This document shows positions 22,442 to 24,038 of a stretch of 64,000 nucleotides of DNA, in pieces. The position numbers and the translations under genes are program-made. Location of the stretch: positions 310,001 through 374,000 of the forward strand of contig JABTUZ010000001.1 of the NCBI GenBank assembly GCA_015075105.1, written 5' to 3'. Position 1 is the first letter of the stretch. Each line of letters opens with the position of its first letter. The notes beneath the pieces were generated by a model. That model saw nothing but the letters and a program-made list of their open reading frames with translations, ran no database searches and was not told where the DNA came from. Source of the DNA: Leptospiraceae bacterium (GTDB lineage Bacteria > Spirochaetota > Leptospiria > Leptospirales > Leptospiraceae).

Positions 22442-22554
22442 ATTTAACCCTTGAAAAGAGATGAAATTTTTTCTATTTTCCTGTTATATTTCTTTTAAAA
22501 ATCACTTTTAGTCAATTCTATTTTTTTTCATTGTCGTTTCATCTAGCAAAGTTA

Positions 22555-23004
22555 CGTTTTTCGTACTGATTTTACACTTTTCGTGCAAAAATGTGGGATC
22601 TCCACTTTTTCAGTAAAGTGCATGCTTTATACCAATTGTTCACCTTTTATGCAAAAATATGGGATCTCCATTTCAGAGGACTGATACTTGAAGTCTGAGG
22701 CCTAAAAAGTGAAGGTAACCTCAAAAAGTAGAATATCTTAGGATGAGGTTTTGAGCTTATGCTATTATGCAGATTATACTGTAAAATGGGATTCCACCTT
22801 TTCAGTAAAGTGCATGTTTTATACCACCAGAACCTTTATAAAAAACATGGAACTCCACTTTTGGGATTAAAAATGAAAACCTTTAGTAAATTTAGACTTT
22901 TATGTAAACTGAAGAAAAATTAAAAATGATAAAATTTTTTTTTTTTTAATAAACTTTTACCTTATAAAATGAGAGCAGAACAAATTCTACTTTATGAGAA
23001 ATTT
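22555..23004 (+). repeat. Dispersed leader repeat, copy B (two leader modules in tandem)
   Basis: A leader upstream of a broken DUF1564 gene. It contains the hairpin module twice: about 22575-22670 (hairpin arms at 22593-22605) and about 22765-22865, with the spacer (TTTCAGAGGACTGA..., then GGATGAGGTTTTGAGCTT) that in copy A lies only at the left end. The second module is more diverged from the other copies than the first. It ends in the AT-rich block and GAGCAGAA before the former start codon. Together with the pseudogene it fills most of the 1.05-kb gene-free stretch 22442-23495. Confidence 0.85.
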
Positions 23005-23438
23005 ATGAACCACAAAATATGTAGAAACCCAATCGATGGTTTGTTCCAGTAAAATATATTGAGTTCATTAGAAGAACAACGGTTTTTTGAGACGAAAATA
23101 TTTACACGCATTGTTGAACAGATAGAAACAAGACTTTGGGGCATTTTTGAGAAAAATGGAGAGTAAAGAAAGGTATCAAGTAAAGTCATAAATTTGCATA
23201 GAATTCCACTGAATAACGAGGACTGATTGAGCTTGCATTCTTGCAGACTGGCTTGGCAATCTGCCAGGTACTGCTCTTTTTACTTTTAGTGCTGACCTTG
23301 CCGATCAAGATAATTCTCCCCGGCAGATTCTTCGAGAATGGAGTTCCCACCCCGGTAACCACGATTGCGGGAGGAGCCTACCTCTCCAAGAGAAAAACAA
23401 CCCGCTACAACAGACTAAAACGACAAAAGCCAAAGTAA
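23005..23438 (+). pseudogene. DUF1564 family pseudogene, copy B
   Basis: Begins ATGAACC at 23005 and matches copy A throughout, but has many single-base gains and losses, so no single frame covers more than about 65 codons. In the last frame one can still read IILPGRFFENGVPTPVTTIAGG and SKRKTTRYNRLKRQKPK, the conserved C-terminus of DUF1564. DUF1564 is a small-protein family of unknown function described from Leptospira, often in many copies. This one is dead. Confidence 0.85.
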
Positions 23439-23451
23439 AACAAAAAAAATC

Positions 23452-23481
23452 TTGACAAAACCAATCAATGTGCCGCATTCT
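23452..23481 (+). promoter_or_regulatory. Putative sigma-70 promoter of SFPD-repeat gene
   Basis: TTGACA at 23452-23457, an 18-base spacer and CATTCT at 23476-23481, 27 bases before the start codon. The -35 is exactly consensus and the -10 is weaker. It lies immediately after the DUF1564 pseudogene. Confidence 0.45.
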
Positions 23482-23507
23482 ATCTGGTATTTTACATGGA
23501 GAAAAAA

Positions 23508-23990
23508 ATGAAAAATCTTTTAGGGGTATTGGTTTGTTTCGTATTTACTTTTCAGATTTCGGCAGCTGATTTTAAGATTGGGGACCGAGTCCAGTGCAAT
23601 TGGAAAGGGGGAGGCACATTTTACAATGGGAAAATTACTTCTTTGAAAGGGAACAAAGCTCATATATCTTATGACGATGGTGACCAAGAAGACACTACAT
23701 TGAATATGTGCAAAAAGGGAGATAGCGGTTCAAGTAGCAATTCAAGCGGGAATTGCCACTTCAACGGAAAGCAGTTGTGGGGGAAGGTGCAGTTTGTAAC
23801 TTCTTTTCCAGATATAAAAGTTCAAGTAGTCAATTCATTTCCTGATTTAAAAGTTCAGATGGTGAATTCTTTTCCAGATAGTTGTGGAAAATGGCAAGAA
23901 ACTTCATCATTTCCCGATTTGAAAGTACAGATAGTTGAGTCTTTTCCAGATATAAAGATTCAATATGTAAATTCATTTCCCGGAAAGTAA
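23508..23990 (+). CDS. Secreted protein with Tudor-like domain and SFPD repeats
   Basis: About 160 residues. A signal peptide (MKNLLGVLVCFVFTFQISAA) is followed by a small beta domain (FKIGDRVQCNWKGGGTFYNG to EDTTLNMCKK) like Tudor/Agenet or SH3-type modules. A Ser/Gly linker precedes six SFPD/SFPG units of roughly ten residues (V-x-SFPD-I/L-KVQ), a pattern seen in unrelated bacteria whose function is not known; a beta-helix or beta-solenoid is likely. The start at 23508 is chosen because GGAGA at 23498-23502 is well placed; ATG 23496 is not. Probably periplasmic or surface. Confidence 0.75.
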   Translation: MKNLLGVLVCFVFTFQISAADFKIGDRVQCNWKGGGTFYNGKITSLKGNKAHISYDDGDQEDTTLNMCKKGDSGSSSNSSGNCHFNGKQLWGKVQFVTSFPDIKVQVVNSFPDLKVQMVNSFPDSCGKWQETSSFPDLKVQIVESFPDIKIQYVNSFPGK

Positions 23991-24000
23991 AGCCTATTCG

Positions 24001-24038
24001 AAAAACTACTCAATTTCGATTGGGTAGTTTTGATTTTT
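24001..24038 (+). terminator. Rho-independent terminator
   Basis: Arms AAAACTACTCAAT and ATTGGGTAGTTTT (one mismatch) enclose a TTCG tetraloop, followed by a T-rich tract to 24038. It is 11 bp after the SFPD-repeat gene stop. The next gene's ATG lies directly after the T tract. Confidence 0.85.

Follow-up and report, generated by a model that had tools for sequence, protein, structure and literature searches.

In the Leptospiraceae DNA analysed here (a stretch of 64,000 nucleotides, called the window), a single gene encodes a small protein in which a Tudor-like module precedes a run of SFPD repeats, and the questions it raises are what the repeat is, how it came to be joined to such a module, and what the product might do. 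The initial annotation described a secreted protein with six decapeptide units of no known kind or function, lying beside a DUF1564 element as part of a transferred cassette with a good promoter and a terminator of its own.

Layout and surroundings of the window gene

The features of the locus are collected in Table 1. Judged by eye, the first 20 residues resemble a Sec signal peptide, in keeping with the claim of secretion, and the ATG is preceded at six bases by GGAG. The six annotated units do make up about half of the mature protein (79 of 140 residues). Their SFP[D/G] motifs, the last of which is SFPG, begin at mature positions 79, 90, 101, 114, 125 and 136 (1-based), and these spacings of 11, 11, 13, 11 and 11 replace the supposed decapeptide by a period of 11 residues, the third unit being two residues longer because SCGKWQ follows the third motif.

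Table 1. Features of the window gene and its immediate surroundings
Feature	Coordinates	Strand	Basis
Decayed copy of dispersed DUF1564-type repeat element, just 5' of the gene (approximate ends)	22549..23453	+	BLAST, copy reading
GGAG ribosome-binding site	23498..23501	+	Sequence
Whole gene, Tudor-like plus knot-family protein, 160 aa	23508..23990	+	ORF and translation
Apparent Sec signal peptide, residues 1-20	23508..23567	+	Judged by eye from sequence
Predicted Tudor-like barrel, residues 21-72; W32, Y39, Y55 and D57 cage-type; C30, C68	23568..23723	+	Homology and model
Ser/Asn/Gly linker, residues 73-81	23724..23750	+	Model
Knot-family domain (Q9PR55, PHROG 6462), residues 82-160; C83, C126	23751..23987	+	Sequence, profile, model
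Intrinsic terminator	24002..24031	+	Terminator scan

The gene has its own terminator, with 13 pairs followed by GATTTTTTAT (terminator-type sites in the region number 4, versus 1.4 expected). The good promoter did not hold up: TTGACA is present 5' of the gene at 23452-23457, but the promoter scan reported no promoter-like site there, and its matches in the region number 13 versus 8.7 (sd 3.1) in shuffles. The adjoining DUF1564 element is real, belonging to a repeat of about 900 bp with 54 BLAST matches in the 3.42-Mb genome (its own copy and fragments counted), longer copies of which are about 69-80 per cent identical; a DUF1564-type open reading frame (153-163 aa) is found in 6 of 11 other copies read, and matches PF07600 at E 7.8e-15 in the one copy tested. 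Carriage of the knot gene by this element at several sites was not found, as the genome has many copies of the element and one knot gene.

The two domains

By sequence homology, the SFPD repeat domain is a member of the torus-knot family of Q9PR55, a domain that we take to be the one named the septoil knot domain. In a phmmer search of the PDB, the window protein matches Q9PR55 (UU089.1 of Ureaplasma; entries 8iwa, 8iwb, 8iwc, 8jrm and 8w68) at E 2.2e-13, the other 15 sequences at E <=1 being weak matches, mostly of 53BP1 Tudor entries to the N-terminal part; a 25-row family profile has UU089.1 as its sole PDB match (E 4.2e-17), and residues 75-159 match positions 17-101 of the 103 in the PHROG 6462 profile (E 1.3e-30). 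The repeat is thus of a known kind, and, in line with the initial annotation, no function was found for it. Pfam, NCBIfam and PADLOC gave no consistent match to a 25-member sample of the family: one PADLOC family in one member (E 0.0058), the NCBIfam PerR model in four (best E 0.0014), and five Pfam families, each in a single member, were all taken as chance.

Q9PR55 was predicted to form a 7_1 knot and its homologue P73136 a 5_1 knot instead (PMC9278004); X-ray work confirmed the 7_1 knot of Q9PR55 (PMC13352647, PMC11223836). No more complex, or intricate, natural protein knot is known. The parts of these articles available to us do not give a function for the 7_1 knot family, nor do they treat distribution, phages or domain fusions in connection with Q9PR55, P73136 or 8IWA (PMC9278004, PMC13352647, PMC11223836). 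The knot fold of Q9PR55 is already known.

The mature window protein was modelled from a 61-row alignment after removal of near-duplicates (60 of 89 kept), giving a mean pLDDT of 87.1 and a pTM of 0.57, with a five-stranded barrel, a disordered linker (pLDDT <50 at mature residues 54-59), and a knot-family domain whose six strands recur about every 11 residues. The first-ranked Foldseek match of this model is 8iwa (E 1.5e-5), with a poor superposition (rmsd 10.1 Å over 69 columns, TMt 0.39). Because of this rmsd, and because AlphaFold is reported to ignore topological barriers (PMC10672856), the model does not fix the knot type of the window domain. A homologue from a Leptospira-type prophage, modelled from 25 rows (pLDDT 87.2, with one of five models poor at 46.8), was compared with 36 Foldseek chains, among which Q9PR55 entries alone reach Z >=2 (6.3, 6.3 and 4.6); the best alignment covers 65 residues at 3.3 Å, and its Z of 6.3 is middling on the tool's scale, sequence homology agreeing with it and no other fold being listed. 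A BFVD search with the same model returned nothing at E 0.001. That the repeat might be a chance or low-complexity feature without a fold is suggested by the shortness of the tandem repeat detected in the DNA (a 33-bp unit in only 2.4 copies, by TRF), but is opposed by the confident model and by the identities, from 63 to 82 per cent, of the best 80 genome loci, and is refuted by homology to a solved structure, leaving it practically no probability.

Most family proteins read consist of an apparent signal peptide and the knot domain alone, with two conserved cysteine sites, one preceding the first strand and the other following the third motif. Both cysteines are present in 86 of 90 family proteins, a count in which five exceptions were read individually (a script gave 85; reading moved L107 to those with both and L037 to those with neither). 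Both are absent from L034, L035 and L037, and L036 retains just one, close to the second site. This loss of the two together, in few cases, suggests from sequence that the pair forms a disulfide. L034 and L035, which represent one phage type, have no visible signal peptide, whereas L037 has an apparent one although it lacks the pair, which argues against a simple link between cysteines and export.

The repeat units of a protein resemble each other more than expected at certain positions. Over 61 rows, and relative to column shuffling that ignores relatedness, agreement within a protein is 0.424 versus 0.184 (shuffled maximum 0.226) for the residue before SFPD, 0.832 versus 0.653 (0.689) for the first residue of SFPD, 0.181 versus 0.146 (0.178) for the residue after it, and 0.470 versus 0.413 (0.464) for the Q/K of KVQ. 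Recent duplication of units was rejected as the source, the excess of synonymous codon identity at same-residue unit positions being small (0.521 over 7224 pairs, versus 0.454 expected from the same genes). These comparisons suggest that the units change jointly and have not been duplicated recently, a pattern that contact between them in a symmetric stack would produce; gene conversion in the more distant past may be an alternative source of their likeness. A divergent second paralogue (L026 and L027, in genomes G006 and G005) was also observed, the units of L027 having YGED or YSED instead of SFPD while retaining the cysteine pair and the period.

The N-terminal module was annotated as Tudor-like, and its model agrees, the predicted barrel having the five strands of an SH3-like Tudor fold and aligning with the PHF19 Tudor domain at Z 10.6 (rmsd 1.0 Å over 54 residues). 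The gathering scores of Pfam are missed (PTM_DIR17_Tudor, 18.8 versus 27.2; Tudor_5, 17.5 versus 31). In the phmmer alignment to 53BP1, W32, Y39, Y55 and D57 are kept at positions that presumably form the aromatic cage, and a fifth such position is D59 in the window protein and Tyr in 53BP1. Extracellular SH3b domains bind cell-wall polymers, and a possible but doubtful reading is that the barrel binds peptidoglycan or another polymer of the wall or surface, with the knot domain as its functional head and no recognition of the methyl-lysine type. Apparent export makes histone-like ligands unlikely, and the relatives of the barrel that follow a signal peptide have other C-terminal regions, as wall-targeting modules often do; against this reading, four cage residues (W, Y, Y and D) are retained, and the top neighbours among solved structures are Tudor domains, with no bacterial SH3b among the 50 rows shown, an absence that excludes nothing.

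Both domains occur in one open reading frame in four of 161 knot reading frames (120 distinct C-termini), all four being copies of the window gene; the survey covered 160 loci, with the 80 genome_contigs loci (in all of which the family profile found the knot domain) chosen by knot-domain score rather than from all bacteria. Relatives possess the two parts separately, as free-standing knot proteins with signal peptides and as signal-peptide-Tudor proteins with other C-termini. Residues 21-69 of the window protein have matches in Tudor proteins from rhizobial plasmids, and a viral scan with its Tudor part found no relative. Among the loci read, L021-L025 and L028 encode proteins in which an apparent signal peptide is followed by a Tudor-like N-terminal domain with two cysteines and then by a longer C-terminal part; this last part is similar in all of them except L021, where it differs. 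A long open frame in L029 ends in Tudor-like stretches, after a region with the stretch HEIGHAIG, which we take to be a metalloprotease-like motif.

Distribution and phage carriage of the family

The claim that the repeat appears in unrelated bacteria is borne out. In a genome_contigs scan with a ten-row family alignment, at least 544 of 590 pattern-matched stretches encode relatives, and the best 80 loci come, by title and with many metagenome bins, from Pseudomonadota, Myxococcota, Bacteroidota, Ignavibacteria, Cyanobacteria and others. Distribution within the Spirochaetota is patchy (30 of 392 genomes), and PHROG 6462 matches 19 of 61 relatives and not one of the 14 control genomes. Phyla are mixed in a tree built on 78 columns and 82 rows, after removal of eight viral rows (26 label changes, versus a least possible 7 and a shuffled mean of 42.7). 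It places the window protein nearest to a Leptospirales sequence (82 per cent), followed by an alphaproteobacterial bin; L048, L062, L097, L104 and L116, missed by a motif filter, and L100, dropped for unknown bases, are left out of the tree, the alignment and the cysteine count. The mixing speaks against purely vertical descent but is weakly supported, with stars on 7 of the 79 inner branches, and the tree gives no proof of transfer.

The genomic site of the window gene is not shared. The adjoining proC gene was found in all eight genomes of its family searched, and yggS lies beside proC in five of the seven others, but in the proC flanks (about 1.5 kb) of those seven genomes no knot gene and no copy of the 236-aa neighbour were found; six of the seven have a knot gene elsewhere. 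Neighbours at 95 loci were clustered, and clusters of three or more loci were listed. The large ones represent prophages of the Leptospira type (7-9 loci), a set resembling Ignavibacteria (up to 8 loci) and artefact-like reading frames of GC-rich DNA; common families recur as well, among them an ABC ATPase in 7 loci and, in five loci with the titles Betaproteobacteria or Bordetella, a solute-binding protein. A conserved operon partner was rejected on this listing.

Two Leptospira weilii plasmids have a family gene, which overlaps the baseplate J gene in both. Related IMG/VR loci are called Leptospira-type here because the nine proteins found first are 88-98 per cent identical to the L. weilii protein. 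Of 23 such loci in which the preceding gene of the tail operon is present, the knot gene separates it from J in 10, overlapping the start of J by 4 bases, and in 13 with the same operon that place has no knot gene. We read the small preceding gene as gp25-like; its PHROG, 5564, has no assigned function. The slot 5' of J is variable (L157-L179), the 13 loci having a gap or short reading frames of about 51-76 aa, and may be a cargo slot of these prophages. Two other phage types carry the gene, between two baseplate hub genes on the opposite strand in L036, and one reading frame from the small terminase gene in L034 (with L035). For these phages the knot gene is accessory and no obligate part of the tail, and its presence in 10 of the 23 loci is moron-like for the family, the window copy excepted.

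The protein might nevertheless be a structural part of the tail, such as a spike tip or baseplate piece that was later domesticated, as its place in the baseplate operon would suggest; its absence from that place in 13 of the 23 loci that share the operon, on which a tail-tip role was rejected as the main reading, and its apparent signal peptide make this very improbable. A reading that is unlikely to a lesser degree makes it a phage accessory, a factor of lysogenic conversion or superinfection exclusion in the envelope, with chromosomal copies as captured phage cargo. The match to PHROG 6462, the position in Leptospira-type tail operons, the settings of L036 and L034, and the apparent signal peptide of most forms argue for it. 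On the other side, the L034 form has no visible signal peptide, the clusters listed among the 80 bacterial loci include no recurring set of phage genes, the reading frames read around the window gene include no phage genes, and 50,697 phage records have no family match at E 1e-3 (nor any at E 1 with the prophage form as query; the domain alone gives five matches with E between 1 and 4, most of them to tape-measure proteins). Of the transferred cassette of the initial annotation, mobility is in keeping with the patchy distribution and the relatives on phages, while transfer by the DUF1564 element, which has 54 matches in a genome with one knot gene, is not supported.

Proposed role and comparison with known systems

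On balance, and with somewhat better than even confidence, we favour the reading that the window protein is an exported protein of Tudor and knot-family parts, the knot domain probably being an adaptable and stable module, either scaffold or binder, that acts in the envelope or beyond the cell. The window gene would have arisen by joining of a signal-peptide-Tudor gene, of the kind present in relatives, with a mobile and normally free-standing knot gene. The two-domain protein would be exported by Sec, after which a C83-C126 disulfide could tie the N-terminal arm to the loop after the third strand of the knot domain, which would make the exported module highly stable and resistant to proteases, while the Tudor barrel, on its flexible linker, would bind a ligand through a pocket resembling an aromatic cage. 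A JBC 2024 structure paper reportedly deals with the stability and protease resistance of Q9PR55. The wide spread of the lone form suggests that the knot domain has a job of its own, most likely as a sturdy module for binding or shielding beyond the cytoplasm; exclusion or lysogenic conversion is a testable alternative, raised by the phage setting of relatives. It is conceivable, though distinctly speculative, that the complex knot is in general a mobile exported module of the envelopes of bacteria and temperate phages, serving for example as an indestructible factor of exclusion or shielding, and that in the window fusion it is the stable arm of a binding barrel with a cage. A knot with seven crossings would in that case have resistance to extracellular proteolysis as its biological use. 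The two-domain member, the cysteine pair, the optional slot in a phage operon and the coordinated units are handles on what a complex protein knot does.

The window barrel shares with the Tudor domains of PHF1/PHF19 and 53BP1, and with Tudor_5 and PTM_DIR17_Tudor, its fold (Z 10.6) and a cage of W, Y, Y/F and D, but differs from them in scoring below the Pfam cut-offs, in being apparently exported and bacterial, and in having two cysteines. P73136, a homologue of Q9PR55 with 112 aa, is near the length of the lone form, and no second domain is mentioned in the available part of its description (PMC9278004); the PHROG 6462 profile, with 103 positions, is too short to include a Tudor domain. Q9PR55 itself, a chain of 89 aa without a Tudor part, has a fold that a prophage member of the family matches at Z 6.3, and it shares with the window protein the SFPD units and homology in sequence (E 2.2e-13; profile 4.2e-17), to which the window protein adds an apparent signal peptide and the C83/C126 pair.
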